From the NCBI GenBank assembly GCA_029932675.1, contig JAOZPP010000076.1, forward strand, positions 1-16,901: DNA of 16,901 bases, written 5' to 3'. How positions within the stretch are numbered: position 1 is the stretch's first letter; every line of letters starts with the position of its first letter. The position numbers and the translations under genes were made by a program. This document shows, piece by piece, positions 1,223 to 15,975 of this stretch. A model generated the notes under the pieces. It was not told the origin of the DNA and searched no databases. It saw nothing but the letters and a program-made list of their open reading frames with translations. This DNA is from a bacterium (lineage in GTDB: Bacteria; SM23-81; DAOVCL01).

Positions 1223-1663
1223 TTATATAACCTCCCTAATCCAATTTAATGGATTATTCACTTTCACTTTTATTTTATCAACAAATTGATGAATTTTTTT
1301 TAGCAATTTATCATCGGTCGTCAGAAAAATATCGGCCTGAGCGGCTTCCGCGCAGGCAATGTGCAATGCATCGAAGCTTTTAACGTCCAATTGTTGGATT
1401 TGTTTGGCGCGCCTCAATATTTGTTCATTAATTTGAACGTAATCATCTGCATTGGACAGCGTGAACTGAACTTTTGTTTTTCTCTCCGGATCGGGAATTT
1501 TGTTCACTTCATAAAGAATGGCGTCGCTGTTTATCATCGACCACTGTTTTTTCTCAATATATTTCAAAATAGTCAATATCGCTTCAGCTTCCAGATGGAT
1601 TCTGTCCTGCGTCTGGTCATCAAAAGGTCTATTCAGACAACAAACATCAAGGTAAACTCTCAT
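1223..1663 (-). CDS. PIN-domain protein, VapC-like ribonuclease toxin candidate
   Basis: A 146-residue protein with the acidic pattern of PIN-domain nucleases: D6 in MRVYLDVCCLNRPFDD, a middle acidic residue E52 (SDAILYEV), D98 in FDALHIACAEAAQADIF, and D117/D118 in LTTDDKLL. These would bind divalent metal for RNA cleavage. Length is typical for the family. It starts 3 nt after the res stop (TAG at 1667-1669) and ends one nt before the small gene at 1221, so it is co-transcribed with the restriction genes. No strong Shine-Dalgarno is visible; translation coupled to res is likely. Toxin activity is inferred from the fold and the small downstream partner. A processing nuclease in the R-M system is an alternative. 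Confidence 0.85.
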   Translation of the reverse strand: MRVYLDVCCLNRPFDDQTQDRIHLEAEAILTILKYIEKKQWSMINSDAILYEVNKIPDPERKTKVQFTLSNADDYVQINEQILRRAKQIQQLDVKSFDALHIACAEAAQADIFLTTDDKLLKKIHQFVDKIKVKVNNPLNWIREVI

Positions 1664-1666
1664 CGA

Positions 1667-4318
1667 CTATTCCATTTCAATTTTAAACAAATTAACGATT
1701 TGAGCGAAATTCTTCAAATCCTTTTTATGCTTTTCCCACAATTCCTGTTTTACATACAACGGCGTATATCGGCGCTCATTTTGTGCGGCGTTCACGTCTT
1801 CACACCAAACGTGTAATCGCCTGATCTTGCGCACGTCGTCCAAATCTTCCCTACCCTTGGTTTCGGCAATGTAAATCTCCTGCTTGGCCTTTTTGATGAG
1901 AAAATCTGGATGAAAGTCGTGGATATTGCCATCCTCCCCCTGGTATTCAATCTTGAACCCAAGTGGCTGGTAGTTCTTGGCAAAGGAGATGATATCCGGG
2001 CAGTTCTCCAGAAAAGCGGCAAATTCCAGTTCAAATTGATTGTCGCCAATGATTTTATTGAACACGCTCTTCTGCGGCACCAGATAGGGCTGATTATCCG
2101 CCACCAGCGGTTTGGCTTTTCGCAGGGGAATAAAGTTTTTAATTTGCGCTGAACCCTTGTCTCTGATGGTCAGATTATCAATTGCCTTTTTGAATGCGCC
2201 ATACAACGTCTGTTTTGCCTCCACTTCGGAAAGATTCCTTAAAACGTTGGCGTCTTCAATATTCACGCTTTTACCGAACAACTTGTATCGAATAAACTGC
2301 TCCACTTTGGGATAGAGAATATTGAATCCGCTCACCAGTCGGCTTTCCTTCAGGATGGCTTGCGTGAAAAAACCTACCACGTTTCGGTAATCGGGGAGGG
2401 TGTCGGTAAATTCTATTTTATGAGAAAACCGACCGTCAATATCGGTGAAGACGATTTCCTTCAATTCATTTTCACTGAACTGTTTCAGGGTAATCGGTTT
2501 GATATTCATGGCGCCAACCTGAATATCTTCCAGATTTTTATAATCCCGATGGATACGGGGCGACAACAGGGGCACAGGGATATCCAATTTATCCAGATCC
2601 TTTTTTTCATTGTCGCTGTCAATTTCCACAATAATCGGATTGCGGGATCTGCCCGTCTCGCCCATTGGTCGATAACTGAATTCCACACCTTCGGTTTTGA
2701 TGGATTCCACGAATTCAATAAAGGCAGATGTGCCCACCACCAGTTCTTCTTTCACGTCCATGCCGAACATTTTACGCAGGCCTCTGCCCAGGGTTTGTTC
2801 GGGCAAAATTTTGGCGGGCGAGCCATAGGGACGCAGTCCCACAATGGTCATCACATTACGCACATCCCAGCCTTCCCGGAGCATCATCACCGAAACCACA
2901 GCTTTGTAAGGAGATGTATCTTTATCCACCGCATCCGCTGCTTTGCGCAGTTGTTCCAGCTCTTCCTTGTCCCGTTTCGATGCCGCGCTCTCAGAAATCT
3001 CACCGCTTTTTTTAGTATGAATGAGCAACACGGAATCCTTGAATTCAGGATATTGGGCCTCCAGATAGCCTTTGGTTTGATTGGCTTCTTTTGTGTCCAG
3101 CGTCATCACAAACAAGATTGGCGTTTTTGCACTTTTCAATTCTTCAAACTGTTTTTTCCATTCAATATACCCCAGATGAATATAGTCTTTATAACGCTCC
3201 ACGAATTCAGACGAGGTCTTTTCGCTCAATTTTGCCCGCGAAGCCTCATCTGGCAATACAGGCGATTTGACAATATTCTGTTTGATGGCTTCCACCAGCG
3301 GATAGTCGCAGATGGTTTGAACAAAAATGGCGCCGTTGTTGTGTTTGGGCGTGGCGGTGTTGTCTATTTGCAGGGAAATGCCCTTGCCCTGTTTCAGTTT
3401 CAGATGATTGTTGATGTCCTCGATACTTTTGAACCACTGCATACTTTCATCATGAATATGATGAGCCTCGTCGTTCATCACCACCAAATCTTTAATTTTA
3501 TTGCTGCGCAGCACCTTTCCCAAATCCATGCCTTTGGATGTGTCCGCATCGGCTGGTGGTTTTTTGCCCAAAAATTCCTCTTCCGGAGACAGCTCTCTAT
3601 CTTCGTTTAAATAGACGCGGTGAATATTGGTCAGAAATAGATTGCCTTCTTCGGTAATCGGCTTCAATTCGTCCTGAATATGCAGGGTAAGATGAAAATC
3701 ATTTTGCCAGTCACGGTCGAAATAGCCATTTTCAGGAATGAGCGGGTCTTCACGAAAAATTTTGAAATCATCAAAATCCTTGCGCAGGCGATTTAGAACG
3801 ATGATATTTGGAGCGATGATGAGAAAATTTCGGGAAAGATCGGATTTGGGTTCATAAAGTTTATGGAAATACGACCAGACCAGGGCAAGACTCAAAACCT
3901 TGGTTTTCCCCGAGCCCGTTGCCATTTTAATCACATACCTCGGCCAACTTTCAGGAAACATGCCCGTGCTGATTCTGCCAGATGAGTCGAATCGCATCAG
4001 CTCAAACTTGTCTCTGGCTTTGGCGATTTCATACAGGTAAATAATGGATTCAACAGCTTCCCGCTGGGCAAAATAATATTGGAAAACATGGTCGTTTTTC
4101 TTATGACCATCGGGTTTGAACCAGAATTGTAATAAGGCCTTTGTCGTATCGGAAGCGCCAGAATAATCACTGTCCCGCCACTCTTTTACCGCCAGGCGAA
4201 TTTTATAGACCAAAGGCGGAATGAGTTGCTCGTAGGCTTTTTCCTGTAAATCTTCCTGCGACGGCGCCGAAGCGAACATTTGGGTCAAGTATTTCAAACG
4301 GATTTTGTGGAAATTCAT
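1667..4318 (-). CDS. res: Type III restriction enzyme, helicase/nuclease subunit (Res)
   Basis: An 883-residue protein of typical Res length. SF2 helicase motifs are in order: Walker A ATGSGKT at 133-139, motif II DEAH at 283-286, motif III TAT at 321-323, and motif VI QTLGRGLRK at 508-516. A C-terminal PD-(D/E)xK nuclease is indicated by HPDF (D805) followed by AETKG (E819, K821), with an acidic residue near 763-765. Known Type III Res proteins use ATP to translocate along DNA and cleave when complexed with Mod at unmodified sites. An in-frame TGA lies directly before ATG 4318, which fixes the start no further upstream; no clear Shine-Dalgarno precedes it. It is the first gene of the chain res, PIN, small gene, mod, whereas mod usually comes first. 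A MITE-like element lies 28 bp upstream and may affect expression. The reading frame is intact. Confidence 0.95.
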   Translation of the reverse strand: MNFHKIRLKYLTQMFASAPSQEDLQEKAYEQLIPPLVYKIRLAVKEWRDSDYSGASDTTKALLQFWFKPDGHKKNDHVFQYYFAQREAVESIIYLYEIAKARDKFELMRFDSSGRISTGMFPESWPRYVIKMATGSGKTKVLSLALVWSYFHKLYEPKSDLSRNFLIIAPNIIVLNRLRKDFDDFKIFREDPLIPENGYFDRDWQNDFHLTLHIQDELKPITEEGNLFLTNIHRVYLNEDRELSPEEEFLGKKPPADADTSKGMDLGKVLRSNKIKDLVVMNDEAHHIHDESMQWFKSIEDINNHLKLKQGKGISLQIDNTATPKHNNGAIFVQTICDYPLVEAIKQNIVKSPVLPDEASRAKLSEKTSSEFVERYKDYIHLGYIEWKKQFEELKSAKTPILFVMTLDTKEANQTKGYLEAQYPEFKDSVLLIHTKKSGEISESAASKRDKEELEQLRKAADAVDKDTSPYKAVVSVMMLREGWDVRNVMTIVGLRPYGSPAKILPEQTLGRGLRKMFGMDVKEELVVGTSAFIEFVESIKTEGVEFSYRPMGETGRSRNPIIVEIDSDNEKKDLDKLDIPVPLLSPRIHRDYKNLEDIQVGAMNIKPITLKQFSENELKEIVFTDIDGRFSHKIEFTDTLPDYRNVVGFFTQAILKESRLVSGFNILYPKVEQFIRYKLFGKSVNIEDANVLRNLSEVEAKQTLYGAFKKAIDNLTIRDKGSAQIKNFIPLRKAKPLVADNQPYLVPQKSVFNKIIGDNQFELEFAAFLENCPDIISFAKNYQPLGFKIEYQGEDGNIHDFHPDFLIKKAKQEIYIAETKGREDLDDVRKIRRLHVWCEDVNAAQNERRYTPLYVKQELWEKHKKDLKNFAQIVNLFKIEME

Positions 4319-4472: not shown

Positions 4473-4503
4473 CTTATTTGAGATAAAAATTCAAGGAGAT
4501 CAT

Positions 4504-5007
4504 GGGGTCAGATCTTGCTTTTTGCTGTTTTAGGCAACTGTTATCACCCTCTGGTCAGGACTTGCGGGCCAATCACTTTGTAAGGATGCACCTGCTAACC
4601 TGATCTATACATAAATTAGCATCAAATCCCTAAATTGTCAAAGGTTTTTGTAGTAGGAACAGGCCTTTTAGACCTGGCCGAGAGGGCGAACAGAGATAAA
4701 TGCCTGCCTATACAGGATAAATAGACCCTTTGCTTAAAGAAAGTTATCTCAATTCGCCATTAGTTTATGAATAATTCGGGCGAATGGGTTGACGTCCAGG
4801 GGCTCAATCTATCCTCCAGTGAAGGCAGATTATCTCCCTCTATGCCTCTGGGCCTCCTTTTCCAAATAGAGATAGTTGCCTTTCCTGAGCTACGAGATCC
4901 TTTATAGGGGGGGACTCAAATTGGAGGAAATTAAAAATTACCTTGGGTTTACTCCTCAATGGTAAGTAGGTAACCTCCAAGGGGGCAAAAAGTAAGGCCT
5001 AAACCCC
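4504..5007. repeat. Dispersed TIR-bounded repeat, copy A (longest)
   Basis: It begins GGGGTCAGATCTTGCTTTTTGC and ends GGGGCAAAAAGTAAGGCCTAAACCCC-like (4982-5007), so the two ends are inverted repeats of each other. The first 280 bp closely match copy B at 6899-7181, for example the stretch around CTGATCTATACATAAATT and the segment ending GAATAATTCGG. Copy A also holds about 210 bp more before its right end (about 4790-4980) that I do not see in the other copies and that has no recognisable gene. A foldback segment (about 4651-4710) lies in the middle. It looks like a non-autonomous transposable repeat; no transposase is encoded. This accounts for the gene-free stretch between the MITE-like element and the first cassette. 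Confidence 0.7.
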
Positions 5008-5014
5008 ATAATTC

Positions 5015-5069
5015 CCTTAACCAAATTCTTGCCCCGCGTTTTTCGGTTAGGTGGAGCGATTTGTTATGC
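5015..5069 (-). other. Possible degenerate attC-like recombination site after the CPBP cassette
   Basis: Read on the minus strand, the segment starts GCATAAC (a usual outer core form, rc of GTTATGC) 15 nt after the CPBP stop, continues AAATCGCTCCACC, and closes near GTTAAGG, which fits GTTRRRY at six of seven positions. The arms AAAT/ATTT and several CC/GG pairs could form an imperfect stem, but there are mismatches and wobble pairs. Position directly behind a cassette gene supports the call; the weak stem does not. It may be a decayed attC or a half site. Confidence 0.4.
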
Positions 5070-5084
5070 ACTTGTTTTGCTCTA

Positions 5085-5951
5085 TTATCCTGTGTATTGT
5101 AAGTGGCTAAACATCTTCTTGACCAAGAATATCATTAAGATCAAAACTACGGCAGTGACAATCCCTGACTCTCCAATCCATAGCATTGAATTGTCACCCT
5201 GGGTTACAGGATTAAATGCAGATTGTGTTAATGCATTCGATGTTGCATGAGCAACGAAAGAAGGCCAGATAATCCCCGTATCCATACGGAGCCAAGCTAA
5301 AAGATAAGAGAAGGATGTGGCAATAATAGTAAACAGGGTAACTGACAAACCAACCGATGGGCCAGATGCTGCTGAATATGCCCCAGCTATAATCAAAGGC
5401 ATATGATAAGCTGCCCAAATGAGACCGTGAATTAGCAGTGGTCTGGGAGCGCCTGAGTTAATGAGGCGAGTTAGCATGTAGCCACGCCAACCTATCTCTT
5501 CACCGGCAACAAAAATCATATTTATCACAACTTGAGCAGTCCAAACTATCGCTATCAAGATCAGAAAACCTTGATAAGGATCTCCTGGAAGAGGGATACT
5601 TGAGTGGGACTGTATAGTTGAAAAGTCAAATTCAGTAAGCCCCGATATCCACGTAAAGCCATAAGCAATAAGGGCAACGGCCATAGGGAATAGGTAGGCA
5701 ATCAAATATGCCTTACGAAGATTACGTCCTCGAAAACTAAATTATACATCTTGAAATCCTTCTCTGAGTATCAGCCTGGTGATGATGGAAGCAATAGCTG
5801 GTGGAAAAAGGATAGCAAATGGAGTAATTCCCTTAATTCTCAGCCAGTACGCTGGAATTGCTAGAACGATTAAAAGAGTGAAAAATATGGCAAGCCCAAG
5901 CTGGGCTTGTTTCCTTGACTTTCGCTTAGGTTTTCCAATATCCTCAGTCAT
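5085..5951 (-). pseudogene. CPBP/CAAX-type (Abi) intramembrane metalloprotease, split by an in-frame TAA
   Basis: Two leftward reading segments (5951-5742 and 5741-5085) are in the same frame, separated only by TAA at 5744-5742. Joined, they give about 287 residues, a normal family length. The N-terminal part has a basic cytoplasmic tail and two hydrophobic spans. The rest carries the three CPBP motifs: EEIGWRGY (EExxxR), HGLIWAAYHMPL with its conserved His, and FVAHATSN (HxxxN), plus further membrane spans. Such proteins are membrane-embedded glutamic or metallo-proteases used in prenyl-protein processing, bacteriocin immunity and signalling. All motifs lie after the stop, so a shortened protein from the internal TTG at 5705 is conceivable but would lose the first spans. 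The gene starts 25 nt after an attC-like core, as gene cassettes do, with no clear Shine-Dalgarno. A sequencing error is an alternative to a nonsense mutation. Confidence 0.8.
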
Positions 5952-5976
5952 TGCTTAGCCCAATTATTTCCAAAGT

Positions 5977-6049
5977 GTCTAACGATTTGGATCACTTGTT
6001 GGTATGAAACGGCAGCGGAATACCAGTCAAGTGCATCCTTTTGTTATAC
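5977..6049 (-). other. Integron attC-like recombination site between two cassettes
   Basis: On the minus strand the 73-bp site runs from GTATAAC (6049-6043) to GTTAGAC (5983-5977). GTTAGAC is a perfect GTTRRRY core; GTATAAC fits RYYYAAC at six of seven. Between them the arms pair: GGAT and CACTTG with CAAGTG and ATCC, leaving one unpaired G, then TGGTAT with ATACCA, closing on a 14-nt loop (TCCGCTGCCGTTTC). An extrahelical base in the arm and near-palindromic cores are hallmarks of attC. The outer core contains the TAA stop of the methyltransferase gene, a common cassette feature, and the next gene starts 25 nt beyond the inner core. Orientation agrees with both genes. Confidence 0.75.
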
Positions 6050-6835
6050 CCATTTTTTTAATCTTATAAATCTATATCCTGCATCAAAATTTGTTCGCCT
6101 TCTTAAATCGCCAAACCTATTGTCCCATACCCCTGATTCTAAATCTTTTTCCAATCTTTGTATTCCACTTTGAACTATCGTTGGATCTGCAAGGGCAAAA
6201 GCTGACATACTTTTTCGAATCTGGGCATCTAAGTATAATTCCGGTTTATTCCATCCCGCACCCATGAACCGATCAGACAAGTTATTTGGAAGTAAAAATG
6301 TTTGGACTTCTACTGACCACTGCCCTTGTTTTGCAATAGATCGGGCTATGTCATTAATCGGCGGAAAGAGATTAAAAGCTTGTTGCCAGATTTCAGGGAA
6401 ATACTCTTTGACCCAGAAATCTTCACATTCTCTGGGGTCAAATGTAAAGATAACGATAGGGCCATTTGGGCAAATTCTAAAAAATTCTAAAGTGGCCTTT
6501 CTAAAAGATGAAAAATGATGCATGGCTAAAATGACCACAACACCATCCACAGAATTATCTGGCAGCGGTATTGATTCTGCCATTCCATCAAACCATGTAA
6601 CATTGGGATTCTGGATAGCCTGATTGCGCATCTCTATTGATGGCTCAACAGCTTTCACTTTGAACCCCAAGTCTGCTAAGGCAGTGCTATAGTTACCGGT
6701 GCCAGCTCCAATGTCTGCAATGTTTGATTCTATAGGTAAATTCAGCAGGCATTTGATAGCATTCAGTATTCTTTTATCAGCAGTTCTATGTTTATTGTAC
6801 CTATTGCCTATTTTATCGTAGATTATGTTGTCCAT
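6044..6835 (-). CDS. Class I SAM-dependent methyltransferase, gene-cassette cargo
   Basis: A 263-residue protein. Motif I is IADIGAGTGNYSTAL at about 39-53. An acidic loop follows (VEPSIEMRNQA), then the motif II/III region AESIPLPDNSVDGVVVILAMHHF, a pattern of Methyltransf_11/UbiE-like small-molecule methyltransferases. The C-terminal half (about 130-263) is not diagnostic, so the substrate is unknown. ATG at 6835-6833 gives the usual start MDNIIYDKIGNRYN just ahead of the fold; there is no clear Shine-Dalgarno, as often in cassettes. The stop codon falls inside the attC-like site downstream. A copy of the dispersed repeat lies about 60 bp upstream, so any earlier cassette or promoter has been separated from it. 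The reading frame is intact. Confidence 0.88.
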   Translation of the reverse strand: MDNIIYDKIGNRYNKHRTADKRILNAIKCLLNLPIESNIADIGAGTGNYSTALADLGFKVKAVEPSIEMRNQAIQNPNVTWFDGMAESIPLPDNSVDGVVVILAMHHFSSFRKATLEFFRICPNGPIVIFTFDPRECEDFWVKEYFPEIWQQAFNLFPPINDIARSIAKQGQWSVEVQTFLLPNNLSDRFMGAGWNKPELYLDAQIRKSMSAFALADPTIVQSGIQRLEKDLESGVWDNRFGDLRRRTNFDAGYRFIRLKKWV

Positions 6836-6898
6836 GAGTATGACTAGGGTTTATCACAGTCGCATAAGAACCTTATAGATGACAAACTGGAGATCGCA

Positions 6899-7181
6899 GG
6901 GTCAAGTCTTGCCTTTTGCTGTTTTTAGCAACTATTATCACCTTCCGGTCAGGACTTGCGGACAATCACTTTGTATGGGTGCACCTGCTAACCTGATCTA
7001 TACATAAATTTAGCATCAAATCCTAAATTGTCAAAGGCTTTTATACCAGAAACAGGTTTTTTAGACCTGTTCGAGGGAGTGGACAGACATAAATGTCCGT
7101 CCCTACTCAAGAAATTATGCCAATTCGTTATTAGGCTATGGAATAAACCCTCAAGAGGGGCAAAAAGCAAGCCCCGACCCC
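6899..7181. repeat. Dispersed TIR-bounded repeat, copy B
   Basis: It starts GGGTCAAGTCTTGCCTTTTGC and ends GGGGCAAAAAGCAAGCCCCGACCCC-like (7157-7181), an inverted match to the start. The body aligns with copy A over nearly its whole length and in the same orientation; at about 283 bp it may be the ancestral size. A foldback with ACAG/CTGT arms lies at about 7047-7107. It encodes nothing recognisable. With copy A it forms a direct-repeat pair around the cassette block 5015-6835. Confidence 0.7.
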
Positions 7182-7235
7182 AAAGTCTTCACTGGTCCAC
7201 CTGCGGGCTCGCAATGGAGGGGACCCCCCTTCCTC

Positions 7236-7584: not shown

Positions 7585-7969
7585 ATATTCTTGATGAGAA
7601 TATCCCTGAGAGTCAACGGCAACTTTTGCGTGGCCGGCGGATTCGGGTTCGTCAAATCGGTCACGAAATAGGCCGTCAAGGAATGGAGGATGAGGAGATC
7701 ATCCCGCTTCTGCACCAATTACGCTCTGTGACTTTCTTTACTCGCGATCTGGGTTTCTACAATCACCGCTTTTGTCACACCAACTACTCTCTGGTCTGCT
7801 GGCTGTAGGCCAATATGAGGTAGCCAGTTTCATCCACCGTTTTCTAAGGCATCCCGCATTCAACCTAAAGGCCAAACGAATAGGCAAAGTGGTTCGATTG
7901 GCCCACAGGGGGATACGGATATGGCAACTCCATGCTGAAAAAGAAGAAGAACTGGCTCGGCCTGCTTGA
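7581..7969 (+). pseudogene. DUF5615 (PIN-like) toxin candidate with a frameshift
   Basis: Starts at ATG 7581, overlapping the preceding stop as ATGA. The first 73 residues, MNILDENIPESQRQLLRGRR onward, show the DEN start typical of DUF5615/Mut7-C-like PIN domains and the later FFTRDLGFY acidic motif (D56). The frame ends at TAG (7806-7808), but another frame carries the natural continuation AVGQYEVASFIHRFLRHPAF ... HRGIRIWQLHAEKEEEL to 7969. One missing base near 7795-7800 restores a protein of about 129 residues. Both genes of this pair therefore have the same kind of lesion. If real, the module is dead; if an assembly error, it is a normal toxin-antitoxin pair. Confidence 0.72.
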
Positions 7970-8042
7970 AGTCAGGGTGGGAGTTCTGACAACCCAAATC
8001 TTTCCTCCTCTAGTGGGAAAGTAGTTGCAACCTCATATGTTG

Positions 8043-8070
8043 CGAAAAAAATACGCAGACTGAAGTCTGC
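8043..8070 (-). terminator. Intrinsic terminator after treT
   Basis: On the minus strand, 58 nt past the treT stop, GCAGAC-TTCA-GTCTGC (8070-8055) forms a 6-7 bp stem followed by GTATTTTTTT (to about 8045). The U-run is on the minus strand, matching treT. It also separates treT from the convergent toxin-antitoxin pair. Confidence 0.7.
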
Positions 8071-8127
8071 TTCCAAATCTGGGGAGGTTTAAGGTTGTTA
8101 CCACCTCCGATGAGGACTCTGTGGAGG

Positions 8128-9354
8128 TCAGTAGTGATTCCTTCTCCAGAGGATCTCGTTTAGCAGATCCAGGTAGTCAATGAGGTGTCTGGTGATCAGG
8201 AAATTCTTCCGTACCCACTCTCTCCCTTTCTGGCCCAGCTCCTTTGCCAGATCTATATCCTGTAAAATGGCCACGATCCTGGCTGCAAAGCCATCAAGGT
8301 CTTGTGGATCAAGGAGAAAACCGTTTTCCCCGTCAACGATCTGCAGGGGGATACCCCCCACATTAGAGGCCACCACAGGTGTCCCCTTCCAGAGTGCCTC
8401 GGTGACTGTAAGGCCAAAGCCCTCCCTGAGAGATTTCTGGATGATGACTGTGGAAACCCGCTGCAGGGCATTCACCAGGATCTGGTTCTCACTGGTGATG
8501 AAGATGATCTCCCCTTTCTCAAGGAGGTGTTTGGCAGAACGATACACCTTGGTGTAGATCCTTAGACTCTCCGGGTCATCTGTGGCCATACTCCCACACA
8601 AAACCAGCCGGCAATCCACTTTTTCCCTCACCCTCTTGAATACCTTAATTACACCCTCTGGGTCCTTCCATTTATCAAATCTGGAGACTTGAGTGATCAG
8701 GGGCTTGTCAAGGTTCACGCCGAACTTTTTCAGATGGGCAGAGATGAGGTTGGGGGAGATATCCTTGTTCTTCGGCGAGAGCGGATCAATGGAAGGATAA
8801 ATTCTCCTCTGCTCTACGGGGAGGTCTTGCCTCTTGTAGTCTTCGCTCGACAGGACCACCAGGTCATATCTAAGGATGAATGTCTTCAAGTAGTCGAAGA
8901 GTTCATCTATGGGGTTAGAGAGGTCGATGTGGCATCTCCAGATCCAGGGTTGTCCCTTGGGATAAAACTTGATCAAGGGAAGCGGCTGAGGGTCATGGAC
9001 GATGACACAGTCATGGTCTATATGGGTGAAGCGGGAGAAGTTCTCGTTGTTTTCCAGATATAATTGCTTCTTCATCTTGGTGAGATGGAGCGGTTCCCCT
9101 TGCAGGGCATTATGAAACTTCTTGGTTACGGTAAAGAAATCCGGGGTTCCATGCAGGATTCTCCAGCCGGTTTCTATGCCCACATCGTTCATTAGGGTGA
9201 CCAGGCTGTTGAGGATCTCGGCCACACCCCCACCCTGATAGGTGGAATTGATATGCAGGATATGTCTTCCGTATAGCCTGCGTGCCTTGCGATAGATACT
9301 GCTGATCACCTCATCTCCCACTATCCCCCGGTAATCCTCTAAGCAGCGCCTCAT
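8128..9354 (-). CDS. treT: Trehalose synthase, glycosyltransferring (TreT), GT4 family
   Basis: A 408-residue retaining glycosyltransferase; known TreT enzymes are about 410-415 residues. They interconvert NDP-glucose plus glucose with trehalose. Diagnostic stretches are HINSTYQGGGVAEILNSL (35-52; glycine loop of the acceptor domain), HDPQPLPLI (120-128), WRCHIDLSNP (139-148), SRFDKWKDPEG (224-234), VLCGSMATDDPE (251-262) and the GT4 EGFGLTVTEALWKGTPVV block with the paired glutamates E311 and E319. I chose ATG 9354 rather than TTG 9360 because GGGAGG sits 6 nt before the ATG. It lies 0.48 kb downstream of malG in the same direction and has its own possible promoter and a terminator. In Thermococcales treT sits among the trehalose/maltose transporter genes, which matches this context. 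The reading frame is intact. Confidence 0.92.
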   Translation of the reverse strand: MRRCLEDYRGIVGDEVISSIYRKARRLYGRHILHINSTYQGGGVAEILNSLVTLMNDVGIETGWRILHGTPDFFTVTKKFHNALQGEPLHLTKMKKQLYLENNENFSRFTHIDHDCVIVHDPQPLPLIKFYPKGQPWIWRCHIDLSNPIDELFDYLKTFILRYDLVVLSSEDYKRQDLPVEQRRIYPSIDPLSPKNKDISPNLISAHLKKFGVNLDKPLITQVSRFDKWKDPEGVIKVFKRVREKVDCRLVLCGSMATDDPESLRIYTKVYRSAKHLLEKGEIIFITSENQILVNALQRVSTVIIQKSLREGFGLTVTEALWKGTPVVASNVGGIPLQIVDGENGFLLDPQDLDGFAARIVAILQDIDLAKELGQKGREWVRKNFLITRHLIDYLDLLNEILWRRNHY

Positions 9355-9397
9355 TCTCAACCTCCCTTGTGGGTTTATTTTTTACTGCCCATCAAAT

Positions 9398-9425
9398 ATA
9401 ATATCGGCAAGTATCAACTATCCAA
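9398..9425 (-). promoter_or_regulatory. treT: Possible treT promoter
   Basis: On the minus strand TTGGAT (9425-9420), a 16-bp spacer and TATTAT (9403-9398) lie about 44 bp before the treT start. The -10 is good, the -35 only fair. The sequence around the -10, ATATAATATCGGCA on the plus strand, occurs again at 9552-9565. Confidence 0.3.
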
Positions 9426-9612
9426 TTCTGCCGCCACCCCTGTGCCGGGAACTTAATGGTTGGCCGATACCAGTCAGATGCGGGCATCTGACCGCTCAAT
9501 CATTGGTGGCTCGGAGGATCTGAGCAAGGGCTTATGAACAATTCGGGTTAGATATAATATCGGCAGATTTTGGGGGGAACTTAAGCCATATTTCACTTAT
9601 GAGCGGCTTAGT

Positions 9613-9635
9613 AAAATAGGGACACTTCCTATTTT
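9613..9635. repeat. Hairpin AAAATAGG/CCTATTTT, possible weak terminator or REP-like element
   Basis: An 8-bp stem with a 7-nt loop (GACACTT), flanked on the plus strand by further Ts (TTTTTTC) and on the minus strand by TTTTAC. It lies about 200 bp past malG. The motif resembles short extragenic palindromes scattered in many bacterial genomes; that comparison is from memory and was not searched. Confidence 0.4.
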
Positions 9636-9697
9636 TTCACCTACCGGAAAAGTCTTGGGGTTAAACCTCTAATTACCAATTTAGGTTCCCATCGGAG

Positions 9698-9725
9698 GTG
9701 GTATCCCGATTTATCGGGATACCAC
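9698..9725. repeat. Perfect 13-bp hairpin downstream of malG
   Basis: GTGGTATCCCGAT and its exact complement are separated by TT. It lies about 112 bp after the malG stop. On the plus strand a T-run (CCCTTTTTGC, from about 9731) follows a few bases on; on the minus strand no U-run follows. It could protect the 3' end of the operon mRNA or act as a processing site. Confidence 0.55.
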
Positions 9726-9837
9726 TCTTCCCTTTTTGCTGGTAGGGCAGAGCCCTACTGACACATAAATTTCTTTATTTTGAATATCTTTTGCCTATCT
9801 GATGGAATCTGGGAGTTCCTTGTTGCCTAATCCGGGG

Positions 9838-10671
9838 TTATCCCTTCAATGCCCCTTTGGTCAGGTCCTGAATGATATAGCGCTGGAAGCCAACGGTAAG
9901 CAGGACCAAAGGGATGGAGGAGATTGTGGAAGCCGCCATAATATGCCCCCAGGGGATCTCCCCATGCAGGCCCTGGAAGAGGGCAATTCCCACCGGAATG
10001 GTCCTGGCCGCCTGGTCTGTGGTGAGCATCAGGGCGAAGAGAAACTCGTTGAAGGAGAAGATGAAGACCAACAGTGCGGTAGAGAAGAGCCCTGGTAATG
10101 CCAAGGGGAAGATTATCTTATAGAGGGTTTGAAATCGGGATGCCCCATCCACCAAGGCGGCCCTGTCCAGCTCCTGAGGGATCTGCATAAAATAGCTCAA
10201 GACTATCCAAAGAGCAAGGGGTAGGGCCCAGGCTATATAAGGGAAGATCAAGGCATTGTAGGTGTTTATCCAGCCCAATCCCGTCATTAACTTGAAGAGA
10301 TACCCCACAACGCTTATCTGGGGAAACATAGAGATCCCTAAGACCCCCAAAGGGATAAGCCTCCTCCCCGGGAAACGATACCGGGAGAAGGCATAGGCAG
10401 CCAGCCCGGCCACAAATGTGGTAAAGAGCGCCACCAGGGCCGAGATGATCAGGCTGTTTCTCAAGTAGGCGGGGAAGTGAAGCGATCCCGCTCTCAGGAT
10501 GTGACCATAGTTCCTTAAGGTCATGAGATATTTAACCTCCTGTGAGGAGAGGAATGTGGGGTCTCTGCTCAGGGAGACAATTATCATAAAGAAAAAGGGG
10601 ACCAGGCAGAAGCCAACCATAAAGGTTATTCCCAGCCAGGTCAGGAGGCGCTTTGTCCGTTCTTCCCTCAT
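9838..10671 (-). CDS. malG: ABC sugar transporter permease, MalG-like
   Basis: A 277-residue inner-membrane permease with about six hydrophobic spans. The first is near LTWLGITFMVGFCLVPFFFMII. The cytoplasmic EAA loop that docks on the ATPase is visible as ELDRAALVDGASRFQTLYKIIFPLALPG. The C-terminal YIIQDLTKGALKG tail is typical of MalG-type permeases (usual length about 270-290). I start it at ATG 10671, after GGAGGGG with 7-nt spacing; longer in-frame starts would overlap malF deeply and add a low-complexity head. The malF stop TGA lies one nt before this ATG (TGAGATG), so translation is coupled. With MalF it forms the channel for trehalose or maltose-type sugars delivered by the MalE-like protein. 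Substrate is inferred from neighbours. No ATPase gene follows. Confidence 0.9.
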   Translation of the reverse strand: MREERTKRLLTWLGITFMVGFCLVPFFFMIIVSLSRDPTFLSSQEVKYLMTLRNYGHILRAGSLHFPAYLRNSLIISALVALFTTFVAGLAAYAFSRYRFPGRRLIPLGVLGISMFPQISVVGYLFKLMTGLGWINTYNALIFPYIAWALPLALWIVLSYFMQIPQELDRAALVDGASRFQTLYKIIFPLALPGLFSTALLVFIFSFNEFLFALMLTTDQAARTIPVGIALFQGLHGEIPWGHIMAASTISSIPLVLLTVGFQRYIIQDLTKGALKG

Positions 10672-10672
10672 C

Positions 10673-15032
<4,360 letters not shown>

Positions 15033-15126
15033 GAGAGCCCTCCTTTTGGTGACACCAAGGCATATGCCCACCAGATCCCCCCCTCGCTCTATCTCCCTCT
15101 CCCCGAGCGAAGCTTCGAATATAAAA

Positions 15127-15232
15127 TTCACCCCGTTAAATATCTGCTGGTCTTAAAAGGTTAACCCTTCTTCTAACAGGTTTGTTTCCTGGGCTCTGAT
15201 TCTCGGTTGGACTTACCATTTAACGGGGTGAA
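15127..15232. repeat. Segment bounded by a perfect 15-bp inverted repeat, upstream of otsAB
   Basis: TTCACCCCGTTAAAT at 15127-15141 is the exact reverse complement of 15218-15232. The flanks GAATATAAAA (15117-15126) and GAATGTAGAA (15233-15242) match at eight of ten positions in direct orientation, suggesting an aged target duplication. The 106-bp unit carries no gene and covers the place where the otsAB promoter would be expected; no strong -35/-10 pair was recognised. It may be a mini transposable element or a regulatory foldback. Confidence 0.55.
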
Positions 15233-15552: not shown

Positions 15553-15738
15553 TTACTCTACAATACGGCTGAATTCGTCAAGTCCGGCAACCTTCAGGGG
15601 GGCAAGCTGCTCTAGGGCCTTTCTGGCGGTAAGTTTCATACCCGCCCAGTCGAAGGCCTTCTCCAATAGGCTCTCTATGAGATAGGCAATCACACATACG
15701 GCCACATGGGCCTTTACCCTGGGGTCTGCAAAAATCAT
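15553..15738 (-). pseudogene. C-terminal remnant of a DDE transposase (IS4/IS1634-like)
   Basis: 61 codons reading leftward to TAA at 15555-15553. The segment PRVKAHVAVCVIAYLIESLLEKAF, followed by LTARKALEQLAPLKVAGLD, resembles the very C-terminus of IS4-superfamily (IS1634-type) transposases: a conserved Arg/Lys-ala-His helix followed by a Ser/Thr-ala-x-Lys-Ala-Leu-Glu region. The catalytic DDE residues and the rest of the protein are absent. The fragment is cut at its upstream side by copy C, which starts at 15740, and is bounded on the other side by copy D. The apparent ATG at 15738 is accidental. Assignment rests on remembered family patterns. Confidence 0.6.
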
Positions 15739-15739
15739 A

Positions 15740-15896
15740 GGGTCAGATCTTGCTTTTTGCTATTTTTCCTACTTTATCACCCTTTGGTCAAGAAGTGGGT
15801 AGGCATAAATGCCCATCCCTACTCAAGAAATTATGCCAATTCATTATCAGGTTATGGAATAAGCCTCAAGAGAGGCAAAAAGCAAGACCCGAGCCC
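15740..15896. repeat. Dispersed TIR-bounded repeat, copy C (internally deleted)
   Basis: It begins GGGTCAGATCTTGCTTTTTGC and ends near GCAAAAAGCAAGACCCGAGC, inverted relative to the start. The middle is shortened to a small hairpin (GGGTAGGCATAAATGCCCATCCC) followed by the family's AATTATGCCAATTCATTATC tail. A further inverted end, AGCAAAAGGCAAGTCCTGACC, lies at 15922-15942, matching the start of copy B; this may be a second, overlapping element end. Confidence 0.65.
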
Positions 15897-15975
15897 AAAG
15901 TTCTCACTTTTTTATGAAGTTAGCAAAAGGCAAGTCCTGACCCCTACTTCTCCATAAGATTATCTGCCAATAACC

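Follow-up and report, generated by a model that had tools for sequence, protein, structure and literature searches.

The segment at positions 5015-6835 of the window, by which we mean the whole 16,901-nt stretch analysed here, consists, as judged from its sequence, of two adjacent gene cassettes in the same orientation. The first is a methyltransferase gene followed by a complete attC site, and the second a gene for a CPBP intramembrane protease followed by a truncated attC site (Table 1). The locus is best called a pair of putatively stranded, decaying cassettes from an eroded integron. The assembly to which the window belongs, as contig C70, comprises 3.03 Mb in 116 contigs and is 97% complete. 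The genome (G000) was compared with others of a little-sampled phylum, four genomes in all, one of which (G001) is of the same genus and is called the sister genome below.

Table 1. Predicted features of the cassette locus and its borders, with positions in the window
Feature	Position	Strand	Description
Dispersed repeat copy abutting attC site 2	4495-5010		TIR-like ends TGGGGTCAGATCTTGCTTTTTGC / GCAAAAAGTAAGGCC
attC site 2, truncated	5015-5069	minus	Confined to R'' (GCATAAC), L'' and a portion of the tip
Cassette 2 gene: CPBP (Rce1-like) intramembrane protease	5085-5951	minus	One interrupted frame
attC site 1	5977-6049	minus	73 nt
R' of attC site 1	5983-5977	minus	GTTAGAC
L' of attC site 1	5998-5989	minus	CAAGTGATCC
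L'' of attC site 1	6038-6028	minus	GGATGCACTTG
R'' of attC site 1	6049-6043	minus	GTATAAC
Cassette 1 gene: methyltransferase	6044-6835	minus	ORF of 263 aa, class I SAM-dependent (Methyltransf_11)
Second, shorter copy of the dispersed repeat	6889-7182	same direction as the first copy	Flanks the cassettes opposite the first copy; 85% identical across the first 208 nt

The complete attC site and the cassette genes

By its anatomy and model scores, the stretch at 5977-6049 is a genuine integron recombination site (attC). On the gene strand it reads GTATAAC-AAAA-GGATGCACTTG-A-CTGGTATTCCGCTGCCGTTTCATACCAA-CAAGTGATCC-AAATC-GTTAGAC. The motifs that define attC sites are an R' of the form GTTRRRY and a complementary R'' of the form RYYYAAC. 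The R' of site 1 fits its consensus exactly, and its R'' departs from it at one position, a departure that is common to attC sites of the sister genome (e.g. GTATAAC on G001 C47). Between the two boxes are unpaired spacers, paired L'' and L' arms with extrahelical bases on the L'' side, and a terminal structure; GGAT-G-CACTTG pairs with CAAGTGATCC, with a second extrahelical A. The original prediction had counted one extrahelical G, but there are two extrahelical bases, G (6034) and A (6027) on the gene strand, which on the bottom strand are C and T. It was right about the GTTAGAC core and about the outer core that contains the stop codon of the methyltransferase gene, as R'' contains the TAA at 6044-6046; the following ORF does start 25 nt past the site. 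The folding that it had anticipated was also borne out, with DNA folding z-scores of -3.0 and -2.7 for the two strands, each of which folds better than nearly all of its shuffled versions.

A simple attC finder, which looks for R''/R' motifs and arm pairing and recovers known attC sites from clinical class 1 integrons, returned site 1 as the sole site of the whole window, with a score of 29; when the window was dinucleotide-shuffled 400 times, one shuffle contained a site at least as good. We also assembled a set of attC sites from plasmid-borne class 1 integrons and from the surroundings of integron integrases at 80 loci of many phyla; the extrahelical bases were used to orient the sites. Two covariance models were built, both with the window site left out. 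The first (R1), based on 13 attC sites of other integrons, matched site 1 from end to end with 41.9 bits and an E-value of 1.6e-9 for the 3 kb searched; across the rest of 72 kb it gave one further weak match only, adjoining an integrase remnant on contig C59. The second (R2), based on seven genus-type sites from the genus and from other phyla, gave 71.5 bits and an E-value of 1.3e-19 for the genome, the E-values of such home-made models being rough. The held-out site thereby scored about as high as the R2 training sites. The original prediction had been staked on a covariance-model match at this place, and the match is strong.

The structure is further supported by covariation among 26 aligned attC sites, in which 90% of cells are paired, compared with 71% in shuffled alignments, and 95 cells are double-changed, compared with 27, although the alignment was fitted to the model and these figures therefore lean towards the structure. 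The signal collapses once the pairs are slid. The TTCCGCTGC tip of site 1 is also found in attC sites beside integron integrases of other phyla; sites from loci of Omnitrophota, Sedimentisphaerales and Chlorobiaceae share with it this tip, the blocks GCAC and TGAC, and both extrahelical bases (G and A). The motif pattern of the genus-type sites has four matches in this genome, two in the sister genome and none in the reversed control. The bare GTTAGAC core is uninformative, its 107 genome matches being fewer than those of the reversed control.

An ordinary transcription terminator or a chance palindrome might also account for the hairpin, which folds and is located at a gene's 3' end. However, no T-run follows it on the gene strand, its R boxes, spacers, extrahelical bases and tip agree with those of attC sites point by point, its model E-value is the 1.3e-19 given above, and an Rfam scan of the window gave no match. 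We regard this explanation as having a negligible chance of being correct.

The methyltransferase gene matches PF08241 (E 7.7e-15). Among named relatives, the nearest is 49% identical and comes from a Nostoc plasmid, where the attC model detected no site. No relatives were found in the genome and viral collections searched, nor among the three other genomes of the phylum. The protease gene matches PF02517 (E 1e-12), and its frame is interrupted by a single in-frame stop, TAA at 5742-5744. Cassette 1 has the makeup of a gene cassette, a single ORF closely followed by an attC site in the same orientation. The 5' boundary of a cassette is expected at a G|TTRRRY core. Cassette 2 has such a core at its 5' boundary (5983); for cassette 1, none was seen by eye at 6836-6889, 5' of the methyltransferase gene, and its outer 5' boundary is thus not visible. 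Cargo other than resistance genes is ordinary for sedentary cassettes.

The truncated second site, the repeats and the neighbourhood

The weaker site that had been proposed at 5015-5069 is best described as the left 55 nt of a different attC site of roughly 99 nt. Its alignment with a complete 99-nt attC site of the sister genome (G001:C75:26220-26318) spans 51 nt at 86% identity, beginning within R'', running through L'' and the tip and ending at GGTTAAG, and this left half has a local alignment score of 65, compared with a shuffle maximum of 28. We take the half site to be real on the strength of this match. Its right arm is missing where the repeat begins; that arm was sought downstream, beyond the repeat, and not found. 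We rejected a complete attC site at 5015-5069, as the right arm is missing and the gene strand gave no match to the attC model, with or without its filters. Thus, the proposal stands in so far as genuine attC sequence is present, and falls short in that only half of a site is there. Similarly, the idea that each unit ends at an attC site is correct for cassette 1, whereas the site of cassette 2 has lost its right half.

The repeat is MITE-like, with inverted ends TGGGGTCAGATCTTGCTTTTTGC ... GCAAAAAGCAAG. A third copy occupies positions 15734-15903 of the window, and whole or partial matches are present at 21 places in the genome.

The neighbouring trehalose synthase has 91% protein identity with its counterpart in the sister genome. 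Below position 8073, the window and the sister genome share nothing at the trehalose synthase locus, and the cassette-bearing stretch is therefore variable. A sister ortholog of the whole locus was considered and rejected, as the trehalose synthase is shared and all beyond it differs. Positions 8128-15131 hold a group of genes for trehalose synthesis and sugar ABC transport (TreT, two permeases, a binding protein and an OtsA/OtsB fusion), among which TreT has a conserved counterpart in the sister genome. Beyond the cassettes in the opposite direction, at 1223-4318, a gene for a PIN-domain protein lies next to one for an 883-residue helicase resembling the res subunit of type III restriction systems; contig C57 has a 36% identical paralogue.

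It is conceivable that the cassettes are passengers from the integron of another bacterium, brought in by a mobile element or by homologous recombination between repeats, and that the bacterium's own integron did not move them. Two same-direction copies of the dispersed repeat bracket both cassettes, and the same-genus locus beside the trehalose synthase lacks everything below 8073. Nevertheless, attC site 1 is of the same family as the other attC sites of this genome and of the sister genome, and the truncated site matches an attC site of the latter, so that a source within the genus is simpler. The repeats are also found in many places without cassettes. On balance, we consider such a foreign origin unlikely.

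Related sites and integrase remnants in the genome and its phylum

The original prediction would have been weakened by a lack of similar sites elsewhere in the genome, but at least nine further attC-model matches with E < 0.01 were found, on contigs C2, C30, C47 (two), C57, C59 (two), C92 and C94. Such genome-wide counts are minima, as the window's own site was absent among the matches of the first genome-wide search, most probably because no more than 150 candidates are scored in its initial step. Pairs of attC matches within 4 kb are found on C47, C30 and C59. Clusters of R1 or R2 matches are present in the sister genome on C113 and C75, and the two remaining genomes of the phylum gave matches as well.

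The genes adjoining these sites read like typical sedentary cassettes. Several are of toxin-antitoxin type: the sites of C2, C30 and C47 have HicA/HicB-like genes nearby, and those of C59 an antitoxin/ParE-like pair, all of them named from sequence; the profile match of the HicB-like gene of C47 is below the Pfam cut-off. The stop codon of the HicA-like cassette of C2 also lies within R''. In the sister genome, cassette genes are of NUDIX, cold-shock/Shedu and glyoxalase-like types. One of them, at 7590-8528 of locus L136 (sister C113), fuses a cold-shock domain with a Shedu SduA C-terminal domain and is a possible anti-phage defence cassette.

The cassettes had been described as lacking an integrase in view, and this extends to the genome, in which no integron integrase scoring above the TIGR02249 cut-off was found. 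The two best full-length matches are XerD (C44) and XerC (C12). The search of the genome returned no complete intI or attI and hence no complete integron, and neither of the two genomes of the genus yielded an intact integrase. What the genome retains is a broken frame on another contig, C59, beside two attC sites; it matches TIGR02249 with an E-value of 4.6e-10 over 46 residues and responds to integron-integrase models only, and to no Xer family. The sister genome has two C-terminal intI remnants, one on C1 (209 bits, positions 189-315, including the integron-specific stretch) and one on C75 (112 bits). On both C59 and sister C75, the cassettes are located downstream of the intI remnant and in the same direction, and loci of environmental relatives have the same inverted layout, with the array 3' of intI. 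The C59 locus (L164) is an eroded integron with its array downstream of intI; between about 1908 and 3910, an intI pseudogene fragment is followed by an attC site, the antitoxin/ParE-like cassette and the second attC site. In the sister genome, the C-terminal remnant of C1 (L017/L023, at about 30-440 and 1055-1085) adjoins the half-attC-like sequences GCCTAACAACGGTTTGCAGCCGACC and GCCTAACCAGTCGTTCAACCGGTCGCG.

These observations raise the question of whether the contigs that carry cassettes belong to this organism, as the assembly is a draft of 116 contigs and might contain pieces of another, integron-bearing bacterium. Contamination of this kind is very improbable. The window cassettes share their contig with the trehalose synthase that is 91% identical to the protein of the same-genus genome, the stated contamination of the assembly is 0.24%, the attC-bearing stretches sit inside contigs of up to 60 kb, and attC matches are present in other genomes of the phylum too.

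We hold it to be very probable that the two cassettes come from an integron that has eroded, of the type whose array lies downstream of intI in the same direction, and of which the genome keeps the C59 fragment and cassettes in about seven other places. A different history is possible, if rather doubtful, in which the integrase spread cassettes singly at attG-like places of the genome and was then lost; the present distribution would be a record of dispersal and not of the break-up of an array.

As for the mechanism by which the eroded integron would have given rise to this locus, recombination of attC sites proceeds via the bottom strand (PMC11023631), which for site 1 would be the plus strand of the window. 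The IntI tyrosine recombinase would bind this strand in its folded form and cut R' at G|TT, and the cassette would be excised or inserted as a circle. IntI would once have placed both cassettes, and the locus would now be immobile unless IntI were supplied in trans. Subsequent decay, in which the CPBP gene acquired its nonsense codon and attC site 2 lost its right half beside the repeat, would have fixed the second unit.

Relation to known integrons and significance

The kind of element is already known, and the window locus is a fresh instance of it in a little-sampled phylum. CALINs are groups of at least two attC sites less than 4 kb apart with no intI nearby, two being also the software default, and have been described as probable degraded integrons (PMC9024848). 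The locus resembles them in its same-orientation, attC-bearing cassettes, in the lack of a nearby intI and in its presumed origin by degradation. It differs in that the window has one complete and one half attC site, which is short of two. Elsewhere in the genome, C47, C59 and C30 have two attC matches each, C59 together with its intI remnant.

Sedentary chromosomal integrons with an inverted intI, in which the array is downstream of the integrase gene, form a sub-clade from soil and freshwater (PMC8352920). The remnants of C59 and sister C75, with downstream cassettes in the same direction, are similar to them, and there are signs that the integrase was lost; in contrast to those integrons, the integrase is in fragments here and the cassettes are distributed over about eight loci and not in one array. 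Integrons have been lost within a genus, and both gain and loss have been reported for Treponema (PMC3607928). Dispersed CALINs are known in Xanthomonas (PMC12444791), and attC-bearing archaeal MAGs and the use of cassettes in trans have also been described (PMC9668308). As in those cases, there are clusters of cassettes away from intI in several chromosomal places, but phylum and attC family are different, and the search of the two genomes of the genus gave no intact integrase.

With this locus, a phylum represented by very few genomes joins the carriers of integron parts. Families of attC sites follow taxon (PMC8352920). The genus-type family, TGCACYTGAC...TTCCGCTGS, is usable for tracing cassettes. 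With its integrase fragments, half attC site and nonsense codon in a cassette gene, this would be an integron caught in the course of decay, whose stranded cassettes could still be mobilised by an integrase acting in trans.
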